Below, one piece after another: positions 3 through 29,434 of a stretch of 31,325 nt of DNA (the first letter of the stretch is position 1; every line of letters starts with the position of its first letter). The stretch is from a virus. The translations under genes and the position numbers were made by a program. The DNA is taken from positions 1 to 31,325 of the IMG/VR virus record IMGVR_UViG_3300042691_051927; one strand, given 5' to 3'. The notes under the pieces are model-generated. The model saw only the letters and a program-made list of their open reading frames with translations, did not search any database and was not told the DNA's origin.

Positions 3-3000
3 AAGGCCCAGCTTGACGCTATGGCCGCAGCCATTGAGGCAGGCAAGCAAAGCACCGCGTATGTTGGGACTGGTCAGTATTACGATCAGCGAGCAAAGGC
101 GTTGGAGCTTGATCAGCAGGAACGCCAGCGACGGATGCAAGAGCGCATTGATGATTTGCTCAAGAAGATTCAAGAAGGAAAGATTACCAAGGCCAAGGCG
201 TCTACAGAGCTTAAGGACATCTTTGGCGACGTTGGCCTAGACCTTGACGTTGCCCAGGCGCAAGGATACTCCTTCATGGAGTCGTTCTCTTCTGGCTTCA
301 TGGATGCGTTGAACTCTAACATCAACGCTACATTTGCCAACATGCCAAAGGCCATTATGGCGGCCCTCAACGTTCTTGCGCAAAGCGCAGCGTACAAGAA
401 GGCTCAAGACGCTCTCAATAACATTATGAACCCATCAACCGATACGCGAACAATCAAGGGCCAGACCATGGTCGATTTGCTTGCGGCACGAATTTCGGAC
501 ACCAAGAACCTTCAGACAAAACTGCGTGAGTACTATGCCCTGATCAAGCCGGAAGTTGGCATGAATGACCCTGAGCGCGTAAAGCGGTTCAAGCAGATCG
601 GCGGATTCCTTGCCGAGCTTGAGCGCTTGAAGAACTTCTACACTCCTGGCGGAAAATACACCAGCGGACAATATGACGACCTTAACGTTGGGTTCATGGA
701 GAAGTTTGGCAGCCTGCTACAACTTGTGATGTCCAGCCTTGCCGGATACTATCCGGGCACTAAGGCAATGGGTGGCGGACTGTTCGGCGGAACACAATAC
801 ATGGTTGGCGAGCGCGGGCCGGAAATGCTCACCATGTTCAAGGGCGGCGGCGGATATGTCACGCCAAATCACAGGCTCCCATCGTCTCTCAGGTCTTCTG
901 CCGGAGCCCTTCGCGCCGGCGCATACGGCCGCGCGGTTGGCGGATACGTTGGATATGGCGGCCCAATTCGTGAAGACAGCGTCACAGTCCCAACCCCGGG
1001 CCCAACTCCAGAGCCGTCATGGATCCCATGGGAGCCATCGCCGACTCCGACGCCGACCCCTACCGGAACGCCAACCCCGACGCCGACACCAACAGCCGGT
1101 CCAGAGCCAAAACCAGAGGGCAGCCCATGGGGAATGTTCCCATTTAACTTTAGGATGTATACAAAGTGGATTAACTCGGTCATTCCAATGGGCGGAATTG
1201 GTCGAATTTACGGCGGCCCAAATGGAGAGTTTACTGGGTATAACAAGGGGACAACAATTCCATTTGAGGGCGATGACGGATTTGCTGTGGTTAAGCGACC
1301 AACTTGGTGGGATCGATTTAAGGACAGAATCAACGTTCGGAAGATTGCACCATTCGATTGGAAAGGCCCTGGAAACATTAAAACGTGGTCGCCAAAGAGC
1401 GGGTTTGTTCCTGGCGTACTAAAAGACCTGCCTAACGGAAAAGTAAAGCTGATTCCTGGCAACGCAATGACCAAGGCGGCCGCAACCACTATGGCCCAGG
1501 CGTTTAGGGGAACTGTAATCCTTAGCACCGGCCTAAGCGCTATTGACATTGCAACGGCCAGCGAGCGCGGAGAATCTCCTGCTCGTGCCTGGGTGCGCAA
1601 TATTGCCATGAATGTTGGCGCACTTGCCATGGCCGTTCCAAATATTGTAGGAGTAGTAGGCAGTGGTGGAACCGCTATTGCTGCTGTGCTTGCTGCAAAC
1701 GCTGTAGTGGCCACTGCCCTAGATGCCCTTGCCGGCGGTGCTTACGACCTTCTTTTTGGCAACGTATGGGACGGAAAGCAAACACAGCAGTCTATCGATA
1801 TGGGCCAAGAGAGGTCTTTGGGATTCTTTGGTGATATCTTTAATTACAATAAGGGCTTCAACCCTGCTCAAAGGCCAAGGCTAACACCAGGAAACGAGCT
1901 TCTGAATTTGCCAAGCCCAACCGTAATGCCAAAGCTAAGGTTTGGTGGCGGTCGAGCTGAGGGCGGGCCGGTTGACGTTGGCCGTGGGTATGATGGCACG
2001 CTAAGTTGGCTTGAAGACTACACAGACCCAGCAACCCGATTTATTCACCAGATCCTGCCACCAGGAAAGAGCAACAGCAATTTGGCTGGTATTGGCGGAT
2101 TTGTTGATATCTTGAGCTCCCTTTACAAAGCTGGGCTCTCATCAATTATGCCCGGACCCGATCTTGCCGACGCACTAGCAAGACTTGCTGGTAGCGGAAA
2201 GCTTCCTGGTCCGCTTGAGGCCCTTGCCCGCAATATGGCGGGGTTGTCTCAGCTCTCTAACGTATCGCGCCCAATGAGCCTTCGGGATATGTACGAGCTT
2301 GACCCGGCCTTTGATCTTGTTAAGCGCGGTATTTGGGATCGTGGATCACGACCTCTTGCTACGGGCGTTATCCGGTCTGTTGTTGGCGGACTGGACACAA
2401 ACTACGAACACCTGGGCGGCCTGCTCAGCGGACGCGCCGAAGACCTAGCCACGATGGGTGGTCCGTCTCCTATTACCTCCGTTGTAACGCGACGTGGATA
2501 TAAGCCGCCAAATGTTACTACCTCGTTCAATGACTTCCTTTCCGGTGACTATCACTTCCCATTCTTGGCAACTGATCCGGCATCGTTCCCGGAGAGCAAG
2601 CGAGTTGGCCTATCGTCTGCCTTGCCGCAGGGCGGAGTAAGTGCCTCAAAGATTGCTGAATTCCAAATTCCTGGCGGTATTCCTATTGATCAGATTGAAA
2701 CCATTCTTGGCCTGCCAACAATGGCTGACGAGAATAACCAATACCGTCCGTTTACCGATGCCGAACGAGCAGCAAGGGCCGCAAAGCTTGCAGAGATGGG
2801 CTTTACCGACCTTGGCAACATGGCTATCGCAACGGATGTATTGAATCAGCAAATTGCAGACTGGAGAAATTCTTCCGGCTCCCTTCCTGTTGATCCACAG
2901 GCCGTTGCAGAGATGCAAGCAAGGATTGTTGAAGCGGCAGCAACGGGCAGGATTTATGGTGGTCGAGAATCTCAGGCTGCACAACTTCTTAGGGCCGGCG

Positions 3001-5534
3001 TTCTTAGGAGCCCAGAAGAGGCCGCGCTGTATGCCGCAACGGCAGATGAGCATTTCAAGCGCGTTAGGGCAAGGCTGGTTGAGACCGAAGCTGAGCGAAC
3101 GCGAAATGCCAGAACTGTTGCCGGAAAGTCATTTGCCGATAGGGTTGCCGAGATTCGAGAGCGCCTGATCTTTACCCAGCCAGAGCTGTTTACAGATCTC
3201 CCCCCAGCAGTCACCGAAGACCTTGTCCTTAAGCTTGTAGACGCACCGGAAATCAAGCCGGTTGGCGGCGAACAGCTTGACCTTTTCAAATTAAAGTCGA
3301 ATAGCGGATTTGACGTGGAGGATATTGAAGGGGGTCGACGTGATTCTGTTCGGATGAGGCCGGGCGAAGGTTTGCGTGGCCGCCCAGTTCGAACCGGAAC
3401 AATCTTAAGGCAACCATCAAGCTTCCTTGGAAAGATTTTACACAATCTAGGAGTTTTTGGTCACGCAGGCACTACAGAGGTTGATAGCCTTGGAGCCGGC
3501 CCAGGGCGCGTGGCAATGGGCAAAGATTTCCCTGGATACCTAGCAGATACCATTAGTTTTGACTGGGGAGATCTGCGAATACCACATGATTATATGGATT
3601 ATGTAGACATGGCCTCCATTGATGCAATATCCAGCTCTGCTCGTCTAGCGTTGGCCGCCGCACCATTTGGCATGTTTGACCCTTCTGATCCAAGCAAGCG
3701 CCTACTGATTGATATCGTAGATCAAATCAGTGGAGAATCTTTTGCGGGAAGGGTTACCCGCTCAGATAGCAATTATATACAGTTGCGTAGGAGCGAGCTA
3801 AAAGGCGGCGCGCCGGACACAGTTATTCATGAGATTGGTCATCTTATGCATAATAACGCATTTGGCCCTCTTAAAGTCCTGCGCTCTCTCGTTGATCCCG
3901 AAGCTCGTAAACTTTTTTCTGCAAGATATAGAGAAGTGCTGGGCATTTTTGAACATAAGAAAAATCCAGATTACGATGATCAGGGAAGGCCCAAGAATCA
4001 CCCGGATTTTAATCCTAAGCCATACACGATTAAAGACACATTGTTTGGTCATGTAAGTGCCCTAAAATCAGCTTTCTATGAAGTTCAAGACCATTTGCAG
4101 AATGAGCAACTTATTCGAGCCTACGAACGCGCCCTTATCGCTCAGGGATTAAACCCGATCCAAGCTCGAGTTGAGGCTACAAGTCTGGCGCTTAACCATG
4201 GCTTGGGGAAGGGCTCCAAGGGATATCAGTACACCATGCCGAGGGATTTCCCGCGCCCAACCACGTATTCCGGGACAAACATCCACGAACATTTTGCTGA
4301 AATTTTCGCGGGACACACCATGGAATCTTTGCCAGATGATATGTTCACGTTCCGAAACCCATTAAGTCAAAACCTTTCTGGAAGGAGTCCAACACATAAC
4401 TGGCGAACCTCGCCACCCGAGCTCCAGGCGGAGCAAGGCGTACTGCAATCTGCTGGGCAAATGCTTGACCTTGAATACACGAGGGGTGTAGCCGACATAG
4501 CATCTGGTGCACTGCCCGACCCAAATGGGTTTGTGGAACGCGCTTTTGCAGCCAGATCTCAATACCCAAGAGAATTGGCAAGGGAATATGGTTTTAGGGC
4601 AATTACAGACCCTGGTGCGGTTGCTGCGGGGCTTATGCCGGAGCTATACACCCCTAAATCTCGTAGAGTCCCAGTACCGTTTACTGGCGGCAAGCTAAGC
4701 CTCAAGGGAATGCAGGCCTGGACCCCAGACCAGGGCGGGTTTAAGGGTACGGCCGCAAAGGCAGATAGTTTTGTCGGTACCAAAAAGGGTAACTTCCTTT
4801 CAGGATTCCTTGCAGATGTTGGAATGATGGCTGCCAGTGGCAACTGGGACTTCGCCCAGCTCATCCCGTCCCTAGCGTTTAACCTCCTTAGCATCCTTCC
4901 AAAGATTGGCGGACCGGCAGCCATGATTGCAGGGCTTCTGACGACGGGGGCCACCGGCGGCGATATGGGGCGAGCGGCGGCCGGAACCGTCGGCTCGCTG
5001 GTTGGCGGCCTCCTTGGCAATTTGATTCCAATCCCATTCATCGGCGGCATGGTCGGCAGCATCCTTGGCGGAATGCTTGGCGACTTTATTTATACAAACT
5101 TTATCAACCCAGAGTCGGCAAATCAGGGAACCCAGATGATCCAGGCCGGTGGTGGGGCGGTGTATAACGTTGGACCGAATGCCCCGTTCCCATTCAATAG
5201 CCGGTCAAATGTTCCGTTCTCTGGTGAGCCAACCCGCAAGATTGGCGGGCGGGCCTTTGGTGGTGCCGTTCGGCCAAACTTGGGATACATGGTTGGCGAG
5301 CGTGGCCCAGAGCTCCTTGTTCCTGGCGGCCTTGGAGGCAGCATCATCCCGAATCACAAGTTGCGGGCTCCGTCAGGGGTATCCCCGGTTGCTGGCGGCC
5401 AAACCGTCAACGCCTCTGTAGTAATCAACAATCCAAACGTCTCTAACGCCGGCGATATTGATAAACTTGCCAAGAAGGTTGCGGAGGCGCAGACGCGCGC
5501 TCTGCGTTCAGCTGGATATGTAAGGCCCAAGTAA
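3..5534 (+). CDS. Tape-measure-like tail protein with embedded metallopeptidase motif (5' truncated)
   Basis: The reading frame is open to the left edge, so the N-terminus is missing; residue numbers here count from the ATG at 21. Tape-measure proteins set tail length and leave the tail with the DNA. Two copies of the motif MVGERGPE, typical of tape-measure C-termini, lie at about residues 261 and 1757. Between them are a Pro-Thr-Pro linker (about 324-368), a hydrophobic stretch (about 492-574), an HEIGH zinc-peptidase motif (1270-1274) with a possible third-ligand helix HEHFAE (1422-1427), and a Gly-rich hydrophobic segment (about 1622-1694). The motifs, the length and the position directly before baseplate genes support the role. 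The protease activity is inferred from the motif only. The long cargo between the duplicated motifs is unusual. The next gene starts 3 nt downstream with only a weak ribosome site. Confidence 0.75.
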   Translation, partial: KAQLDAMAAAIEAGKQSTAYVGTGQYYDQRAKALELDQQERQRRMQERIDDLLKKIQEGKITKAKASTELKDIFGDVGLDLDVAQAQGYSFMESFSSGFMDALNSNINATFANMPKAIMAALNVLAQSAAYKKAQDALNNIMNPSTDTRTIKGQTMVDLLAARISDTKNLQTKLREYYALIKPEVGMNDPERVKRFKQIGGFLAELERLKNFYTPGGKYTSGQYDDLNVGFMEKFGSLLQLVMSSLAGYYPGTKAMGGGLFGGTQYMVGERGPEMLTMFKGGGGYVTPNHRLPSSLRSSAGALRAGAYGRAVGGYVGYGGPIREDSVTVPTPGPTPEPSWIPWEPSPTPTPTPTGTPTPTPTPTAGPEPKPEGSPWGMFPFNFRMYTKWINSVIPMGGIGRIYGGPNGEFTGYNKGTTIPFEGDDGFAVVKRPTWWDRFKDRINVRKIAPFDWKGPGNIKTWSPKSGFVPGVLKDLPNGKVKLIPGNAMTKAAATTMAQAFRGTVILSTGLSAIDIATASERGESPARAWVRNIAMNVGALAMAVPNIVGVVGSGGTAIAAVLAANAVVATALDALAGGAYDLLFGNVWDGKQTQQSIDMGQERSLGFFGDIFNYNKGFNPAQRPRLTPGNELLNLPSPTVMPKLRFGGGRAEGGPVDVGRGYDGTLSWLEDYTDPATRFIHQILPPGKSNSNLAGIGGFVDILSSLYKAGLSSIMPGPDLADALARLAGSGKLPGPLEALARNMAGLSQLSNVSRPMSLRDMYELDPAFDLVKRGIWDRGSRPLATGVIRSVVGGLDTNYEHLGGLLSGRAEDLATMGGPSPITSVVTRRGYKPPNVTTSFNDFLSGDYHFPFLATDPASFPESKRVGLSSALPQGGVSASKIAEFQIPGGIPIDQIETILGLPTMADENNQYRPFTDAERAARAAKLAEMGFTDLGNMAIATDVLNQQIADWRNSSGSLPVDPQAVAEMQARIVEAAATGRIYGGRESQAAQLLRAGVLRSPEEAALYAATADEHFKRVRARLVETEAERTRNARTVAGKSFADRVAEIRERLIFTQPELFTDLPPAVTEDLVLKLVDAPEIKPVGGEQLDLFKLKSNSGFDVEDIEGGRRDSVRMRPGEGLRGRPVRTGTILRQPSSFLGKILHNLGVFGHAGTTEVDSLGAGPGRVAMGKDFPGYLADTISFDWGDLRIPHDYMDYVDMASIDAISSSARLALAAAPFGMFDPSDPSKRLLIDIVDQISGESFAGRVTRSDSNYIQLRRSELKGGAPDTVIHEIGHLMHNNAFGPLKVLRSLVDPEARKLFSARYREVLGIFEHKKNPDYDDQGRPKNHPDFNPKPYTIKDTLFGHVSALKSAFYEVQDHLQNEQLIRAYERALIAQGLNPIQARVEATSLALNHGLGKGSKGYQYTMPRDFPRPTTYSGTNIHEHFAEIFAGHTMESLPDDMFTFRNPLSQNLSGRSPTHNWRTSPPELQAEQGVLQSAGQMLDLEYTRGVADIASGALPDPNGFVERAFAARSQYPRELAREYGFRAITDPGAVAAGLMPELYTPKSRRVPVPFTGGKLSLKGMQAWTPDQGGFKGTAAKADSFVGTKKGNFLSGFLADVGMMAASGNWDFAQLIPSLAFNLLSILPKIGGPAAMIAGLLTTGATGGDMGRAAAGTVGSLVGGLLGNLIPIPFIGGMVGSILGGMLGDFIYTNFINPESANQGTQMIQAGGGAVYNVGPNAPFPFNSRSNVPFSGEPTRKIGGRAFGGAVRPNLGYMVGERGPELLVPGGLGGSIIPNHKLRAPSGVSPVAGGQTVNASVVINNPNVSNAGDIDKLAKKVAEAQTRALRSAGYVRPK

Positions 5535-5537
5535 CCC

Positions 5538-8500
5538 ATGGACTATACCGGAACAATAACCATAAAAATAAAACCAAAGCTGCTAAACCATACCCCCCTG
5601 GGCGATGGTTTCTTTAGCATTACCAGTCGTGTTAGTTTTTCTGAGGGCGGCTCGGATAGCGCATTTACGTTTACGGAGAGCTCAGACGGGTCGCTTGGAG
5701 AGGCGCAGTTCTCAATGTTTACCATGTTCCCCCACTCAATTACAAGCTGGTCTGGCTACTCTGGGGCCTCCGTAGATGACCAAGTACAAGCTGCCCTTAA
5801 TGACCCGACGTACGACTTTGAGATTCCGGCTCGCACAGAAGTACAGATCTATGAAGACAACACACTCATTTTTGGTGGAATTGTTACTGAGGTGTCGCGG
5901 GTCCGTGAGGGCGGCTCTATCACAACAAAAATCAAGTGCGCCGACTACACCGCACTTCTTGACGAAGTGGTTATTGACCGGTACAAAGCGCCCTATGAAA
6001 CGTACGATTATCAGCTGATTCGTGGTGGCTACCTAACCGACAAGGAAAAAAACGGCGTTAAGGTGACCAAAATCGTCAATGGCAGCAGCGGTGGCGGCAG
6101 CCCAAAGCGCTTAATTACCGTTACCCTTGACGACTCGCATGATGTGATTGTCGGGCAGAAGGTAGAAATTGACCGAACGACAAACTACAACGGTACTTAC
6201 ACCGTTGCCTCAATTCTCTCACTTGTCTCCTACACAGCGCTTAGCACTTCTTCTTACACCGTTCTTGCAGATGAGACGTCTGGGCGCAGTACCCCATACA
6301 CCATCTCTTTTTTTGAGGACATCAATAAGACCGACCCATATACCGGATCATCCATCTCCAACGCTATCGATTACGACAACCCTCTTACCACCGCAACGAA
6401 CTATGTCGTGACGGGCGGAAGTGATTGGCGCTTTAGCCCAATCACGTATGTTCCAGACGCCTCATACCCAGAAAAACTTGGGGCCAAAATCCTTTTGCCG
6501 CTTTCCGAGGGAAAGTCTGATGACGGCAGATCCGCAGTCGATCCGAAGGCCCTAGACTCGGACGAGCGGTTGCGTCTATATCGAATTGAGAATGCCATTA
6601 CGGAGCGCTACATTGTTAGCCAAATTGGCGCATACAATGCCGCAAGCAACTATATCGACATTACTACAATTTCAGATCACAATTTTCAAACTGGTCAGTA
6701 TTTGAATCTGGGCAACGTAGATACAAATCGACCGGGTGATTACACTGCCGGATTCCGTGGCGACCGTCAGTCTTCAAAGGTACTGCGAATTACCACCGAC
6801 ATCGACCCTGGCTTTTCGGTTCAATCGGCAACTATTACTGGCGCAACTTGCGACGGAATCTATACAACCTACACGGCAAACAATACGCTTAAAGTCGGCT
6901 CTCCTGTGGGAATTACAGGAATAACGCACTCTGGGGCCGGAACTGAGGGAAGCTACAACGTTGACTTTTCAATTATTGAAGAAGCAACGGCAACTACGTT
7001 TAAAATTCGCAATGTCACCACAAGAACCTACGCTTCTGGCGGCACTGCTTATTCGTCATTTGTTCTGCTAAACGAACTTCAAACAATATCCGCAGCAGAA
7101 AAACGCCTTAAAATTATTGCAGCACAACGAATTGCTGACATTACTACAGTATGGTACGACAGCGCTACAAAATATTTTAATGTTGGGGATGTCATCACAA
7201 TTAACGGAGATGCGACATTCGACGGTCGGTTTACTGTTACCGAAAGTGGCGCTGCAGAAGGAAATTCCGGCTTACCGCTTAGGGTCTCCTATGTTGGGAG
7301 AACAAACAACGTTGCCCAGATTATTATTTCAAAGAATGCGAGCGGCTACCCAGAATTTAACGCGCACCCGTTCAATAAAGGCGACGTCGTGGACGTCACT
7401 TTACCAACTGGATATACCTCTGCAAATGCAACTGCAGTCACCATTCTGGGGGAGGGGTCGGCAACCGGAAGTGGCACTTCTGCAGTGTTGTATTACCCAA
7501 GCACCGGAAGTAATATTAAGTTTACAAAGAAATTTACTAACGCTCAAATTGCCACAACATCGGTAACTTTTTCAACTAAGACGCTGTCGTACATTAAGTT
7601 TTCCGACGAGCGGGCGGACACCGTTAAGGCAGCAAGGGCGGTCAAGGCCGGGGCGTACATTTCTCTTCCATACTACGCTTGGGACGCGGTTGCCAGCGGT
7701 TCTCGCTCAGCCGCAACCCCAAGCGCCTCTTTTGTAACCATGCCGAATGACTCGATTGTTTACCTTGGGGGGCGGCAAAGCGTCGACTTTGAATCATCGG
7801 AATACATGGGGCTTAGCACAAGGCAGTCTGCTGAGATTGCCTTTGTTGAGCGAGCATCGGATATTGTTACTATTTACACAAAGGCTCCTCACTCATTTGC
7901 CGAGGGTCAGAGCGTCACGATAGCCGCAGATTCTCCATATACCGGCCTCAATGGTACTTATGGCATAGACAATGTTACCAAGGGCACGTTTAAATTCTCC
8001 TTAGCCGGATCGACAATTGCAAAAAATGCTGCGACCGGCAGCTGTTCATCTGACGGACTTGGGTTCTATGCAGCCGGAGGAATGATGAGCTCGATCTGCG
8101 TTATTAGGCCAGAATCCTTGCCATCATCCGGCCAGTATCAAACAATTTGGCATCACGGATCAACCGGCACCGGCCAGCGCCGAGAGCTGCAAATCAACGA
8201 CTCTGGCGCATTGTGCTTCATGACCATTAACAATTCCGGCTCCACTGAGCGGTTTGTCAGCACGCTGACTGTTGCTGCGGATGAGACGGCAATTGTCTAT
8301 GTTTCCTATAACCCAACCGGATCGCATATGTATCCTGCAGAAAGCGGCGACGAAACCTATGGAACATCTGGAAAGCTGACAATTCAAAAAAACGATGAAA
8401 CCCCGCAGACAAACACACCCTCAACCAGGGCGGTCACCAATCGCGGAAACTTTACTGTTGGCTACGGATACACTAATTCTGGAACTGCCACCTCGTTCTT

Positions 8501-10688
8501 TGACGGCTTGATTGGCAACATTTATGTATTTGATCGAGTTTTGCGAAACACCGAGCGAGAGCAAATTGTGTCGTGGATGGCGCATTATTTCACCCTGTCC
8601 GATCTTCTCTCTGAGACAAATGACTATCGCTATCTTGCAGATCACCCAGGAAAAGACGAAGCAAATCGGGCAAAAGAACCGTTTAACGGCATGACGCTTC
8701 GTCAGGCTATGGACTACATTTCCAAAAAGACTGGATCGCAGTATTGGGTAGATGCGAACAAGAAGCTGCACTACCAGCGTAGGAATGTTAAAAACCTTGT
8801 ACAAAATCCAACCTTTGAGGATAAGTTTGGCGGATCAAGCGCCAAGGACTGGACGCTTGGCTCGTTTACAATTAGCAGCCGCTCTTCCGGGCCGTATGGG
8901 TACGGATTCTCCGCAGCAGCCACTGGATCGTCAGAGCTTATTGCCCGCTCTGCATTCTTCCCAGTTGCTGCCAATCAAGTCTACTTTGCCTCAGCAATGA
9001 TAAAAACATCTGACGCTGCAAAGTCACTAATAAAGATTCGTTTTTACGATGCAAGCGGAACGCAGGTTGGCGCAGAAAAACCTATCGGTTCCGGAGTTTC
9101 TGCAAACAATTCTTGGGAGAAGATGTGGGGCATGGTTAAGGTTCCGACGACCGCAGGAATTACCCAGGCTGCGCTTATCTTCCACCACACCAGTCACACT
9201 AATTCTTATGATGATTATTACGCAGATCCAAAAGTTGTAAAAATTACATCGGCATTTGGCTTTGCAGACTACGGTATTGCACCAGGATCAAGCACAGAAA
9301 TGCTTTTTGACACAGACCTTAACGAAATTCTGCCGTTTAGGACGTTTGAGTCTCCAGAAAATATCTCGCAACAGGGGACACAGGCAAATCGCCTATACTT
9401 GTACGGCAAAGCTACGACTGTTGACTCTAGCAACAACATTATCACCCCATATGTTGTTACTGGACAAGTCATCAAGTATACGTTTGACTACGTCCAGGGG
9501 GTCTGGAACACCCACGGAAAAATCATTGAGGCGTCTAAGACCGACTCCAACCCAGAAACCATTGAGGACGCAGCGCTTGCTGCCAGCTCTTTCTGGGCAG
9601 AGAATGGGCAAAGCATCGAGTCGTATGATTTTGCGCATCCAAACAACGGCTCATCTGGAAGGCTGACCGTCGGTTCGATTATTCCGTATTTCTGGTCTGA
9701 GGTTGGAATCATCGAGCCGCTGGTTGTAAAGAGCCAGACAACCACCGTTTTGGGCGGGGAAATGTACTACAACGTCACCCTTGCCGGGGAGCCTGCGTTC
9801 CAGAAAAATGCAATTATCCTCGTGCAAAAGCAGCTGCTTACAGAAAATCTTGGGAGTGGCTCCGTAAAGTACATGACGCCCAGCAAGGTAACAAACTTCT
9901 TGGTGCAATCATTTGATAACGACGGCAAAGTTACCACTACCGGACAAAATGTTGTGTTGACTTGGAGCATTGATCGAACAGACCCTCGAAATAAAAAAGT
10001 TACCCATTTTGAAATTGCGCAAAAAAAGCAAAAACTTAAGCAAGGCCGAAGAAGCACTGCAAACATGACAGATGCATTGGTTAGTAGCACAAATTTTGCC
10101 GTGAAACGATCTGCCGCATCCGCCGGTGGGATTGCGGTAGTTACGCTGAAATATACGGCAAGCACTGGCCTAAAAGTTGGATCATATATTACCGTCGCTG
10201 GCGGGCAGATTGGCAAAAAGGCAACTAACAATCCGCCTATCTCTGGTGAGTATGAGGTTACCAGCGTTTCTTCTGATGGAAGAACAATCACCTACAACCA
10301 ATTTGCCCCAGCTACGTCTGGAATTATTGCTATCTCAGCAAAGCGGCGCAGGGATCTCCCAAGCATTGTAGTCACATGGTATGAAGAGGTTGGGTCAGAT
10401 ACCGCGTCAAGATGGGATCGCCTTGCAATCTCGACTTCAACTTCGTACACTGATGACGGCGATACCGATGCATCCAAAGTTGCCGGCAAGGGAGTTGACA
10501 TTAAATACCGGTATCAGTATCGAGTACGAGCTGTTGCCAAGGACATTGCAACCGGAGTCGAACTATTTGGTCCATGGTCATATGTTCCAGCGGGCTATCT
10601 TAACACCTCCAGCGATACGGGATGGATTTACATTAGCGATAATCTTTTCCTTGCCGGAGTGCCAGACCTACAGGAGCCAAATACATGA
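5538..10688 (+). CDS. Large modular tail/baseplate protein with lectin-like domains
   Basis: This 1716-aa protein follows the tape-measure gene and overlaps the next gene by ATGA. The first ~170 residues resemble the hub/baseplate minor tail proteins that follow the tape measure in siphophages. Then come several degenerate beta modules of the type 'hGhxxGdxVxi.g...nGtyxV' (for example around nt 6130, 6670, 7170, 7870 and 10140). A LamG/concanavalin-like region spans about residues 747-1018, and a jelly-roll carbohydrate-binding-like region spans about 1084-1236, opening with NLVQNPTFE. Fn3-like sequence lies at about 1465-1500 and near the C-terminus. The likely role is distal tail structure plus binding of host surface glycans. 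Domain names are from recognised sequence style, not a database search. Confidence 0.75.
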   Translation: MDYTGTITIKIKPKLLNHTPLGDGFFSITSRVSFSEGGSDSAFTFTESSDGSLGEAQFSMFTMFPHSITSWSGYSGASVDDQVQAALNDPTYDFEIPARTEVQIYEDNTLIFGGIVTEVSRVREGGSITTKIKCADYTALLDEVVIDRYKAPYETYDYQLIRGGYLTDKEKNGVKVTKIVNGSSGGGSPKRLITVTLDDSHDVIVGQKVEIDRTTNYNGTYTVASILSLVSYTALSTSSYTVLADETSGRSTPYTISFFEDINKTDPYTGSSISNAIDYDNPLTTATNYVVTGGSDWRFSPITYVPDASYPEKLGAKILLPLSEGKSDDGRSAVDPKALDSDERLRLYRIENAITERYIVSQIGAYNAASNYIDITTISDHNFQTGQYLNLGNVDTNRPGDYTAGFRGDRQSSKVLRITTDIDPGFSVQSATITGATCDGIYTTYTANNTLKVGSPVGITGITHSGAGTEGSYNVDFSIIEEATATTFKIRNVTTRTYASGGTAYSSFVLLNELQTISAAEKRLKIIAAQRIADITTVWYDSATKYFNVGDVITINGDATFDGRFTVTESGAAEGNSGLPLRVSYVGRTNNVAQIIISKNASGYPEFNAHPFNKGDVVDVTLPTGYTSANATAVTILGEGSATGSGTSAVLYYPSTGSNIKFTKKFTNAQIATTSVTFSTKTLSYIKFSDERADTVKAARAVKAGAYISLPYYAWDAVASGSRSAATPSASFVTMPNDSIVYLGGRQSVDFESSEYMGLSTRQSAEIAFVERASDIVTIYTKAPHSFAEGQSVTIAADSPYTGLNGTYGIDNVTKGTFKFSLAGSTIAKNAATGSCSSDGLGFYAAGGMMSSICVIRPESLPSSGQYQTIWHHGSTGTGQRRELQINDSGALCFMTINNSGSTERFVSTLTVAADETAIVYVSYNPTGSHMYPAESGDETYGTSGKLTIQKNDETPQTNTPSTRAVTNRGNFTVGYGYTNSGTATSFFDGLIGNIYVFDRVLRNTEREQIVSWMAHYFTLSDLLSETNDYRYLADHPGKDEANRAKEPFNGMTLRQAMDYISKKTGSQYWVDANKKLHYQRRNVKNLVQNPTFEDKFGGSSAKDWTLGSFTISSRSSGPYGYGFSAAATGSSELIARSAFFPVAANQVYFASAMIKTSDAAKSLIKIRFYDASGTQVGAEKPIGSGVSANNSWEKMWGMVKVPTTAGITQAALIFHHTSHTNSYDDYYADPKVVKITSAFGFADYGIAPGSSTEMLFDTDLNEILPFRTFESPENISQQGTQANRLYLYGKATTVDSSNNIITPYVVTGQVIKYTFDYVQGVWNTHGKIIEASKTDSNPETIEDAALAASSFWAENGQSIESYDFAHPNNGSSGRLTVGSIIPYFWSEVGIIEPLVVKSQTTTVLGGEMYYNVTLAGEPAFQKNAIILVQKQLLTENLGSGSVKYMTPSKVTNFLVQSFDNDGKVTTTGQNVVLTWSIDRTDPRNKKVTHFEIAQKKQKLKQGRRSTANMTDALVSSTNFAVKRSAASAGGIAVVTLKYTASTGLKVGSYITVAGGQIGKKATNNPPISGEYEVTSVSSDGRTITYNQFAPATSGIIAISAKRRRDLPSIVVTWYEEVGSDTASRWDRLAISTSTSYTDDGDTDASKVAGKGVDIKYRYQYRVRAVAKDIATGVELFGPWSYVPAGYLNTSSDTGWIYISDNLFLAGVPDLQEPNT

Positions 10689-14468: not shown

Positions 14469-14488
14469 TCGTTATAGGGTAAAATAAA

Positions 14489-14525
14489 AGAGGAGGGGCC
14501 CCGTGAGGCCCCTCCTCTTTTTGTT
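14489..14525 (+). terminator. Rho-independent terminator, probably bidirectional
   Basis: A 12-bp perfect stem (AGAGGAGGGGCC at 14489-14500 with GGCCCCTCCTCT at 14507-14518) and a 6-nt loop are followed by TTTTTGTTT on the plus strand. On the minus strand the same stem is followed by TTTTATTTT. It therefore ends the plus-strand tail/lysis operon and the convergent minus-strand cassette whose last gene stops at 14539. Confidence 0.93.
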
Positions 14526-16450: not shown

Positions 16451-16484
16451 AAATAAAAAGTCTGCCGGAAAAAACCGACAGACT
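16451..16484 (-). terminator. Rho-independent terminator of the minus-strand fibre operon
   Basis: AGTCTG/CAGACT and CGG/CCG pairs with one mismatch form a stem across 16459-16484 with a six-base loop. On the minus strand it runs into TTTTATTT (16458-16451). It sits 25 nt past the last gene of the operon (stop at 16509). Confidence 0.75.
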
Positions 16485-16508
16485 CTTTAATACAAAACGA
16501 TTAACTAA

Positions 16509-27511: not shown

Positions 27512-28164
27512 TTGTTAAGAATTTTCTGCAAATCCTCTGGGTATCTAGTCCGAATGTACTGCTCAAAAGCTACTAAGTCTTTGCTGTACACCTCCGGGCT
27601 ATTGACTTCAGTGTATCCGGCGTCAACGTTTGCTTTTCCGGCAATCGGGTGTAGGTGCTCAATGATTACATCGTCTCGATACCGGAGATGATTCAGGTCG
27701 GTTCCAAGCATTTTCCAGAAATTGTCCATGTACATGTGGATTAATTCTGGCGGAGCCATGTAGCCAATTGCGCGAACGATAGAGGCAGACATCATTACGG
27801 CAGTTGGCAGGTTAGCTCGCTGCAACAAGTCATTGCCGTATGCAACACCATCTCGATCCCCGATTTCATTGGCAAGCTCAACATCCCATCCCTTTGTCAT
27901 TGGCCGGTGATCATCGCCCATAAACGCCAGGTATTCATAGTCGTTTGCATGTTTTGTTGCCAGAAGATTTAGCGTTCCACACATTCGAAGGCGAGGGTTT
28001 ATTGATGCAAGGGCCATAACCTCATCTGAGTATGGGGAGTAGTCGTCTTCATCAATGCCAAAGAGAATGTCGCAATCTTGTGAGGTTTCTCGAAACTGTC
28101 CCAGAAGTGCGTCGCAGGAATCTGGGCGGTGTCTTGTGGGGACAATAAGCAATGTTTTAGCCAT
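27508..28164 (-). CDS. Glycosyltransferase (GT-A, GT2-like)
   Basis: In this 218-aa protein the N-terminus MAKTLLIVPTRHRPD is a standard GT-A/GT2 opening. FGIDEDDYSPY (35-45) and FMGDDHRPM (81-89) carry acidic residues of the DxD type. AYGNDLLQRANLPTAVMMS fits the acceptor-side region. The start ATG at 28164 has AGGAG 6 nt upstream and lies inside the end of the first operon gene (8-nt overlap). It probably works with the next glycosyltransferase and epimerase. Confidence 0.75.
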   Translation of the reverse strand: MAKTLLIVPTRHRPDSCDALLGQFRETSQDCDILFGIDEDDYSPYSDEVMALASINPRLRMCGTLNLLATKHANDYEYLAFMGDDHRPMTKGWDVELANEIGDRDGVAYGNDLLQRANLPTAVMMSASIVRAIGYMAPPELIHMYMDNFWKMLGTDLNHLRYRDDVIIEHLHPIAGKANVDAGYTEVNSPEVYSKDLVAFEQYIRTRYPEDLQKILNK

Positions 28165-28378
28165 TCTTAGCTCCTGTTTTCATGCTAATAAGCCATTGTG
28201 CCTCTTCTTCGTTTAGCCGGACAAAATCTGTATGACCGTACGTCCCCGGGAAATGCACCTCATATGGGTCCAGGTCGCTTGACCATCGTGGCGCGTACGA
28301 CATGGCCATGTTGAACGACGAAGACCAGAGGTACCAGAGTGCCGCTGCCTTAGGGCTTGGCGGAGGTGTTTGATTCAT
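28157..28378 (-). CDS. Small hypothetical protein, first gene of the long minus operon
   Basis: This 73-aa protein has its ATG at 28378, 6 nt below an extended -10 box; the upstream in-frame ATG at 28399 is less likely because it would lie above that box. It is rich in Pro at the N-terminus (TPPPSPK) and in aromatics (LWYLWSSSF). No recognised family. It shares 8 nt with the glycosyltransferase that follows. Confidence 0.5.
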   Translation of the reverse strand: MNQTPPPSPKAAALWYLWSSSFNMAMSYAPRWSSDLDPYEVHFPGTYGHTDFVRLNEEEAQWLISMKTGAKNG

Positions 28379-28384
28379 GGGCGC

Positions 28385-28393
28385 ACTATAACA
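28385..28393 (-). promoter_or_regulatory. Extended -10 promoter, apparently leaderless, for the eleven-gene minus operon
   Basis: On the minus strand TGT-TATAGT (28393-28385) is an extended -10, and exactly 6 nt (GCGCCC) separate it from the ATG at 28378. No good ribosome site precedes the ATG. The architecture is the same as at the terminase gene start. Confidence 0.55.
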
Positions 28394-28417
28394 CACCATG
28401 AGTAGATTTTCACAGGA

Positions 28418-28447
28418 TTGCGTTTGTAGTCTTGTCGCCACTATCTT
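28418..28447 (+). promoter_or_regulatory. Sigma70-like promoter for the structured RNA and downstream genes
   Basis: TTGCGT (28418-28423) and TATCTT (28442-28447) are separated by 18 nt. The expected start, 6-8 nt downstream, falls at about 28453, right at the 5' edge of the first RNA hairpin (28450). The match is moderate, but the agreement with the RNA boundary supports it. Confidence 0.5.
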
Positions 28448-28449
28448 GT

Positions 28450-28563
28450 GTTACTGCCCCCCTTCCAACCGGGGCGTAACGTCTCTGGGCGTTTTCCCAG
28501 AGGTCGGTGGGGGTGGCCCGAGTTGGACGGGCCGGCATGTTTGATCGCGTGCCGGCCCCACCG
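28450..28563 (+). ncRNA. Structured RNA: two hairpins, three-way junction and loop-loop kissing pair
   Basis: H1: GTTAC(28450-54)/GTAAC(28476-80) and GCCCC/GGGGC, with one bulged T and a 10-nt loop. H2: CTCTGGG(28483-89)/CCCAGAG(28496-502), loop CGTTTT, extended by two wobble pairs. Outer stem: CGGTGGGG(28505-12)/CCCCACCG(28556-63). Inside it, H3 GGCCCG(28515-20)/CGGGCC(28528-33) and H4 GGCATG(28534-39)/CGTGCC(28548-53) abut with no gap. The H3 loop GTTGGA (28522-27) is fully complementary to TCCAAC (28464-69) in the H1 loop. All G·U pairs fit the plus strand. GC is far above the neighbours. It ends 20 nt before the next ATG. It may be a cis-regulatory leader or a stand-alone RNA. Confidence 0.75.
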
Positions 28564-28582
28564 CCGGAAGCATGGAGGCAAC

Positions 28583-28807
28583 ATGGCAGGGAAAGCAAAC
28601 GCAAAGCTGGCAGTTAAGTCTTCCCCTAAGCCGGCGCACCTTACCGGCATTATTTGCTATGTATGCAACAGTGCAATTATGTCAAATGACATCAGCACCT
28701 GGAAGCACATCTGGTTTCCGGAGGGGGCTGCTCGGCGTTCAGCGCTTCGCAAATATCACAAAAAGTGTGGCCCGGCCATTTCTGCAGACGCAGGTAAGAA
28801 GCGATGA
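28583..28807 (+). CDS. Small zinc-finger protein (C-x2-C-x30-H-x2-C)
   Basis: This 74-aa protein has GGAGG 4 nt before the ATG, 20 nt downstream of the structured RNA. After a basic N-terminus come CYVCNSAI (Cys25 and Cys28) and YHKKC (His59, Cys62). The spacing C-x2-C-x30-H-x2-C, with Ile four residues after the second Cys, matches the PARP-type zinc finger pattern. Treble-clef fingers in general are also possible. It probably binds nucleic acid. It overlaps the next gene by ATGA. Confidence 0.6.
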   Translation: MAGKANAKLAVKSSPKPAHLTGIICYVCNSAIMSNDISTWKHIWFPEGAARRSALRKYHKKCGPAISADAGKKR

Positions 28808-28977
28808 GCGAATTTATCAACCTTCTCCCTGAGGACGAGTCTATTGAGGAAGAGTGCGGAGATAGATGCGGCGTTGCACTTGCGGAACGGGCATGTGAGG
28901 CGTGCGACGAACAGTTTGTTGCATGCTACGACCACGAAACCTATGTGATGTTCTGCGAGAATTGCCGTGAGATCTAA
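28804..28977 (+). CDS. Acidic zinc-ribbon microprotein
   Basis: In this 57-aa protein an acidic N-terminus (residues 7-17) is followed by six cysteines: CGDRC (18-22), CEAC (31-34), and CENC (51-54) near the end, plus Cys41. This is a two-site or ribbon-like fold. It is translationally coupled at both ends (ATGA upstream, 11-nt overlap downstream). Not recognised. Confidence 0.55.
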   Translation: MSEFINLLPEDESIEEECGDRCGVALAERACEACDEQFVACYDHETYVMFCENCREI

Positions 28978-29434
28978 AAAGCAGGAGAGAAATGAAGAAA
29001 TCGGGCGCTTGTTCATGGATGGCTACACGGCCAACGAAATCGGAAGGATGCACGGCATCAGCAAGCAACGTGTCTCCTTTATCCTACACAACCTTGGAAT
29101 CAGAGCTGAAGAGTCGTTCACAACGGTTGTTCTTCCTGACCCCTACGTTGTTGCGCTGGATTTCGGCGATGTTGCCAGTCGGGTAATGCTTGATTGGTCT
29201 GCTGCAAAAATATTGCCAAAGTTTGATCGGGTAATTAAATCAACTCCAGAAACGGCACACGTTGACCTTCGGCAATTCAGCAGTAGGGAACATGTTCTTG
29301 CCTACGTGCCAAAGCTTGAGGGCTCAGATCTTTCTGGACGGGAAATACGATCAAACTGGCTTGTATATGCCTACCCGTTGGAAGAGTCTCGGTTCAATCC
29401 TTTTTGGGGGCAGGAACATATTTCAGCCGACTGA
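28967..29434 (+). CDS. HTH DNA-binding protein
   Basis: This 155-aa protein starts at a GTG at 28967. Residues 8-45 (ERNEEIGRLFMDGYTANEIGRMHGISKQRVSFIL) form a clear helix-turn-helix of the homeodomain/sigma-region-4 type. The remainder (about 50-155) is a mixed domain of unknown fold. It is the last of three small genes behind the structured RNA. Its stop overlaps the convergent glycosyltransferase gene by 41 nt. Probably a regulator of these early or accessory modules. Confidence 0.65.
   Translation: MRSKKQERNEEIGRLFMDGYTANEIGRMHGISKQRVSFILHNLGIRAEESFTTVVLPDPYVVALDFGDVASRVMLDWSAAKILPKFDRVIKSTPETAHVDLRQFSSREHVLAYVPKLEGSDLSGREIRSNWLVYAYPLEESRFNPFWGQEHISAD

Follow-up and report, generated by a model that had tools for sequence, protein, structure and literature searches.

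Genomic context of the leader element

The window, that is, the whole stretch of DNA analysed here, is the 31,325-base viral record IMGVR_UViG_3300042691_051927, which belongs to a tailed phage whose genes include those for terminase, tail fibre and glycosyltransferase. A leader element is located in it between divergent genes, with a small minus-strand gene on one side and, on the other, three small genes that form an operon on the plus strand (Table 1). The operon is about 850 nt long, contains no convincing internal terminator and runs into convergent genes.

The product of gene 1 has no Pfam match and its structure model is beta-rich at low confidence; residues C25, C28, H59 and C62 are invariant in 10 relatives. 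Only 30% identity is found between the gene 1 products of the two clades described below (types A and B), and the gene is retained in relatives without the leader element. The HTH protein of gene 3 is strongly conserved across all relatives compared. It shows a weak match to Sigma70_r4 (E 0.0014, below the cutoff), and its structure model is of modest confidence with no useful fold match. No relatives of this protein were found in 84,980 bacterial and archaeal genomes searched, and no named phage was matched by DNA similarity or by searches with the HTH protein.

Between the divergent promoters, the motif GTAGATT is followed after about 8 nt by the TTG of the plus-promoter -35 box (28403-28423 in the window), and it occupies the same place in L023, L048 and L050-L059. 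It stays conserved although the spacers diverge, and this site could be a candidate operator for the HTH protein encoded by the same operon.

Table 1 Coordinates of the leader element and of the neighbouring features in the window
Feature	Position	Strand	Description
Divergent small gene	28157-28380	-	ATG at 28380; own -10 TATAGT at 28385-28390
Promoter of leader	28418-28447	+	-35 TTGCGT 28418-28423, 18 nt, -10 TATCTT 28442-28447; predicted from sequence
H1, 5'-terminal hairpin	28453-28477	+	Arms 28453-28454 and 28456-28460 with 28471-28477; core GCCCC 28456-28460/GGGGC 28471-28475; U28455 bulged; loop 28461-28470
UCCAAC of H1 loop	28464-28469	+	Probable kissing partner of 28522-28527
AACG, 5' strand of probable H-type pseudoknot	28478-28481	+	Partner CGUU 28490-28493 in H2 loop
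H2, hairpin	28483-28502	+	CTCTGGG 28483-28489/CCCAGAG 28496-28502; loop CGUUUU 28490-28495
H5, closing helix of three-way junction	28506-28562	+	GGTGGGG 28506-28512/CCCCACC 28556-28562
H3	28515-28533	+	GGCCCG 28515-28520/CGGGCC 28528-28533; loop AGUUGGA 28521-28527
GUUGGA of H3 loop	28522-28527	+	Probable kissing partner of 28464-28469
H4, hairpin	28534-28553	+	GGCATG 28534-28539/CGTGCC 28548-28553; all pairs kept in L002 and L012
Shine-Dalgarno of gene 1	28574-28578	+	GGAGG; 4-6 nt upstream of ATG in every element-bearing leader
Gene 1	28583-28807	+	74-aa basic protein with CxxC and HxxC (zinc-ribbon-like); ATG 28583
Gene 2	28804-28977	+	57-aa cysteine-rich protein; ATG 28804; overlaps gene 1; as read in the sequence
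Gene 3	28967-29434	+	155-aa helix-turn-helix (HTH) protein; GTG 28967

Architecture of the leader element

When the plus strand was read directly, the five packed stems of the original prediction and the complementarity of two of its loops were all located at the expected coordinates. H3 and H4 adjoin without a gap inside a closed three-way junction, H5-H3-H4, which ends about 12 nt upstream of the Shine-Dalgarno sequence. H1 had been drawn with three further outermost pairs (28450-28452 with 28478-28480), and these are abandoned here: they precede the predicted +1 and clash with a probable pseudoknot. The best delimitation of H1 is therefore 28453-28477. The single-sequence fold is modestly better than chance (z -1.98, with 10 of 200 dinucleotide shuffles as good), and in a scan of the whole window the element had the second lowest energy among all 120-nt windows. 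Single-sequence stability alone is thus not decisive, whereas the evidence from comparison with relatives is strong.

Distribution and lineage history

About 25 contigs of uncultured phages were found to share this locus in searches with gene 1, the HTH gene and DNA patterns. Here the element occurs in ten distinct copies, which fall into two diverged clades and represent few independent lineages. Type A comprises the window, L002 and L012 (the element of L013 is identical to that of L012), and type B comprises L050, L051, L052, L054, L057, L058 and L059, the first two being the contigs also labelled L024 and L025. The element measures about 110-145 nt. In type B, a larger arm stands in place of H4 and holds an invariant 34-nt core, GGCCAAGGNNCGTCGACGGACGANCTGCCGGGCC (alignment columns 92-125, L050-L059), while the neighbouring stems vary freely. 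This core is absent from type A and looks like a putative binding site. The element is not coding sequence, because the type B leaders contain in-frame stops and are 151-153 nt long.

Other relatives carry reduced leaders. In L003-L011, H1 is retained and the remainder is replaced by a short GC-rich hairpin; in L023, L048, L107 and L108, the leaders are about 30 nt long with one small hairpin. In the HTH-protein tree, the short form is nested within type A, next to which the minimal form branches, apart from type B. The simplest history is therefore inferred to be one in which the common ancestor had the element and at least two losses followed. The operon persisted through at least two losses of the element, which is therefore not essential.

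Covariance-model and pattern searches found one copy of the element per record, always in the same leader. Several further matches were rejected. L028 and L029 matched the kissing-loop pattern by chance and are tandem tRNA genes, whereas the match of L109 to a loose pattern is an unrelated GC-rich hairpin. The type B core pattern had 26 matches in bacterial genomes, none of them with the flanking element.

Covariation and homology

MAFFT failed to align types A and B beyond H5, since H4 differs, and H3 and H5 were therefore aligned by hand on structure. Such an alignment leans towards structure, and the independent check is provided by a model and counts from type B only. In the hand alignment of the ten copies, standard pairs occupy 362 of 372 cells (97%). 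This value was never reached in 500 tree-aware null alignments, which preserve the number of changes of each column on the tree and in which the paired fraction did not exceed 93.5%; over the whole structure, 15 compensatory pairs were observed against a null maximum of 11. Compensatory changes affect five of the seven pairs of H1 between clades (98.6% of H1 cells being paired), five of seven in H2, whose paired fraction was unmatched in the 500 nulls, and three of six in H3, where the loop-closing pair shows three pair types. H5 has one such change in nine pairs, with all of its cells paired, and the kissing helix one in six. H1, H2 and H3 each find support when taken singly; significance is not reached in this way by H5, the kissing helix or the pseudoknot.

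For type B alone, 11 pairs change on both sides in a plain MAFFT alignment, and 500 shuffles never attained the paired fraction or the covariation score that were observed. When a covariance model was built from the type B copies alone, it matched the window with 38.2 bits (E 7e-7), L002 with 39.6 bits (3.5e-7) and L012 with 48.3 bits (3.6e-9), these E-values being rough; it gave no match in the short-leader relatives. Across the alignment, 30 cells hold G-U and one holds A-C, confirming the predicted assignment of the RNA to the plus strand. Related contigs thus supply the compensatory changes that the original prediction had named as its support, in H1 and H3 and once in the kissing pairs. 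The element is almost certainly a real, conserved structured RNA.

Probable kissing loop and pseudoknot

The segments TCCAAC (28464-28469) and GTTGGA (28522-28527) are complementary over all 6 nt. In type A, the H1 loop reads UCCAAC and the H3 loop GUUGGA; in type B, the former becomes UCCGAC or UCCGAA and the latter GUCGGA or GUCGGU, tracking the change in the H1 loop. Between the clades, both sides of one pair of the kissing helix have thereby changed, from A-U to G-C. Five or six contiguous pairs can form in each copy, and the four inner ones are kept in 10 of 10 copies. Short leaders without H3 provide a further comparison: there, the H1 stem stays and CCAAC is gone, the loop now being UUUAUCC (one event), as would be expected if loss of H3 had released the pairing constraint. 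The claim of an internal kissing loop holds as regards the complementarity, the compensatory pair and the joint loss with H3; it is weaker than that of the stems, and the contact, whether in cis or in trans, is best described as probable.

A second tertiary contact is suggested by the motif RRCG (AACG, AGCG or GGCG), which faces an invariant CGUU in all ten copies and each time lies one nucleotide before H2. The pairing has an ordinary H-type geometry and is in competition with the three pairs first drawn at the outer end of H1. The evidence is supportive rather than proof, because the only changes are from A to G opposite U, and an H-type pseudoknot between 28478-28481 and 28490-28493 is considered probable.

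Predicted promoter and 5' end

A common promoter pattern (TTGACC or TTGCGY, 17-18 nt, TAYYYT) precedes all 17 leaders compared, and its spacer is not conserved. With +1 placed at the seventh nucleotide downstream of the -10 hexamer, transcription in the window is predicted to start at about 28453/28454. In nearly every one of the 17 leaders, a stem starts at the predicted +1 or within 3 nt of it, and an early stem near this position is also found in leaders of 30-56 nt without the element. It has been reported that 5' secondary structure stabilises bacterial mRNA, since both RppH and RNase E require a 5' end that is single-stranded (PMC3997798). This known effect of paired 5' ends, together with the stem at the predicted +1, is the reason why 5'-end protection is preferred as the function. 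Comparisons of leader folding found no conserved switch involving the Shine-Dalgarno sequence. Its sequestration by the H1 loop (CUUCC with GGAGG) was also considered; this is possible on paper and was not consistently predicted.

Possible functions of the leader

The fixed place of the element, about 12 nt upstream of the ribosome site, favours action in cis, and it is quite likely that the leader RNA acts on the operon downstream. Control of the stability or translation of the three downstream genes would be the most likely role. The best single description, to which we give about even chances, is that of a new family of cis-acting 5'-terminal leader RNAs in uncultured tailed phages, which shields the 5' end and tunes the three-gene operon; that 5'-end protection is the main role may be proposed tentatively. 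With transcription starting at about 28453/28454, the nascent RNA would fold its own 5' end into H1, which would continue directly into the probable pseudoknot with the H2 loop, and the H1 loop would then dock onto the H3 loop of the three-way junction H5-H3-H4. Such a compact fold may lock the 5' end against 5'-end-dependent decay and keep structure away from the ribosome site, and the amount and lifetime of the mRNA for the zinc-ribbon-like, cysteine-rich and HTH proteins might thereby be set.

5'-terminal stabilising stem-loops, such as those of the ompA and papA leaders, place a stem at the first nucleotides of the transcript, where one is also predicted in the relatives. However, those leaders are simple hairpins, whereas in most of the present lineages, although not in all, the hairpin is part of a tertiary fold. 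Since a plain hairpin would suffice for 5'-end protection, the junction, the kissing loop and the invariant type B core suggest an additional binding function. A bolder version, which we consider rather unlikely, is an undescribed class of DNA-phage leaders in which pseudoknot and kissing loop together fix the 5' end to the three-way junction, as a module that resists nucleases or that binds RNA polymerase or the ribosome; in principle, it would be comparable to the exonuclease-resistant RNAs of eukaryotic viruses.

The strongest rival to the 5'-end-protecting leader is a ligand- or protein-binding translational operator, whose binding by a metabolite or a phage protein (in the simplest case, the zinc-ribbon-like product of 74 aa) would close or open the ribosome site. 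T4 gp32 acts in this way on its own leader: gene 32 is autoregulated via a pseudoknot 67 nt upstream of the start, which is bound by a zinc protein (PMC3014915). The phage leader resembles it in having a tertiary fold with a probable pseudoknot shortly upstream of the ribosome site of gene 1, which encodes a small basic CxxC/HxxC protein, here zinc-ribbon-like by sequence alone, and the invariant 34-nt core in the type B H4 arm would suit a binding site. Nevertheless, the T4 leader combines a single pseudoknot with an A+U-rich unstructured operator, whereas the present element is a GC-rich three-way junction with a kissing loop, for which protein binding is hypothetical. The core is missing from type A, gene 1 has diverged strongly between the clades and persists where the element is lost, and the folding comparisons gave no conserved switch with the Shine-Dalgarno sequence. 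Such an operator appears doubtful.

Antitermination has also been considered for structured RNA at the 5' end of a phage transcript. In HK022, the put RNA binds the zinc-binding domain of beta' and suppresses termination. A put-like leader would bind RNA polymerase while nascent and suppress downstream pausing or termination, and the resemblance extends to the position of a structured RNA at the start of the transcript near the promoter. The HK022 putL site lies just downstream of PL, and put RNAs, of about 70 nt, form two stem-loops (PMC9378689). In contrast to put, whose two stem-loops are accompanied by a triplex and which lacks a three-way junction and kissing loop, the present element spans 110-145 nt with H1, H2, the junction, the kissing loop and the pseudoknot. 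It is also followed by a short operon without a convincing internal terminator that soon meets convergent genes, and a put-like role is very unlikely.

It is similarly improbable that the element is a stand-alone RNA which acts in trans or forms oligomers. The phi29 pRNA uses intermolecular loop-loop pairing to form an oligomeric ring on the packaging motor, and it shares with the phage leader a three-way junction and two complementary loops. As these loops are not self-complementary and lie beside the junction, they would permit chains or rings. GOLLD and ROOL, which are phage-linked RNAs, also assemble by kissing loops (PMC12286853), and covarying kissing loops, probable in the present element, are a trait that it would share with them. 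However, GOLLD and ROOL are far larger stand-alone RNAs, whereas the present element always lies directly upstream of the same gene, with no convincing terminator in between. Packaging genes are not adjacent, and there is no Rfam match to pRNA, GOLLD or ROOL.

The original prediction had further envisaged a two-state switch, in which H3 competes with an 11-bp alternative of H4 (28529-28539 with 28548-28558). As an attenuator, this alternative would displace H3 and H5. All 11 pairs stay standard in the window, L002 and L012, including a C-G to U-A change in L002. Nevertheless, this covariation is also accounted for by H3 alone, and fixing the other stems puts the alternative at a disadvantage of about 12 kcal/mol (11.5 to 12.7 kcal/mol for the window, L002 and L012 when H1 and H2 are kept fixed), a gap of 1.4-3.3 kcal/mol remaining under free refolding. 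The type B arm differs and does not conserve the alternative. As regards riboswitch features, the clades share loop motifs only, and the alternative state, which type B lacks, is energetically unfavourable in type A. The switch is thus set aside as highly improbable. Finally, DNA-level inverted repeats (an operator, recombination or replication site) without RNA function would fit palindromic GC-rich DNA between divergent promoters, but the excess of G-U over A-C cells, the conserved loops and the start of the element at the predicted +1 leave them scarcely any likelihood.

Novelty and significance

No match in the window reached the gathering threshold in Rfam 15, as the original prediction of a previously unrecognised RNA would have it. 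With permissive settings, the best match at the element was mir-1228 (16.8 bits against a threshold of 88, E 4.2), and no match was obtained at the type A or B elements of L002, L012, L024 and L025 up to E 1. A literature search of partial coverage found no description of such a leader. With the compensatory changes in H1, H2 and H3 and the recovery of the window by the type-B-only model, the element is a new structured RNA, an uncatalogued family within a known kind, the structured cis-acting leaders.

Few cis-acting RNAs are known in DNA phages, and this one, whose structure is well supported, joins them with a loop-loop contact and a pseudoknot that are both probable. The operon behind it is small and conserved and belongs to phages never yet brought into culture. 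Leaders of full type A, full type B, hairpin-only and minimal form make up a natural series, which offers a ready experiment on the contribution of the 5' leader to phage gene expression.

Other features of the window

Elsewhere in the window, a perfect long hairpin (AAAAGAGGAGGGGCC ... GGCCCCUCCUCUUUU) at 14486-14524 lies between convergent gene groups and has the lowest z-score in the window; it is likely a bidirectional intrinsic terminator. Another terminator-like hairpin, with A- and T-rich flanks, lies at 16454-16490 between two minus-strand genes. Two giant open reading frames, at 3-5534 and 5538-10688, encode products of 1843 and 1716 aa. The latter has no PHROG match, and the 1843-aa product has a tape-measure match in its C-terminal part only.
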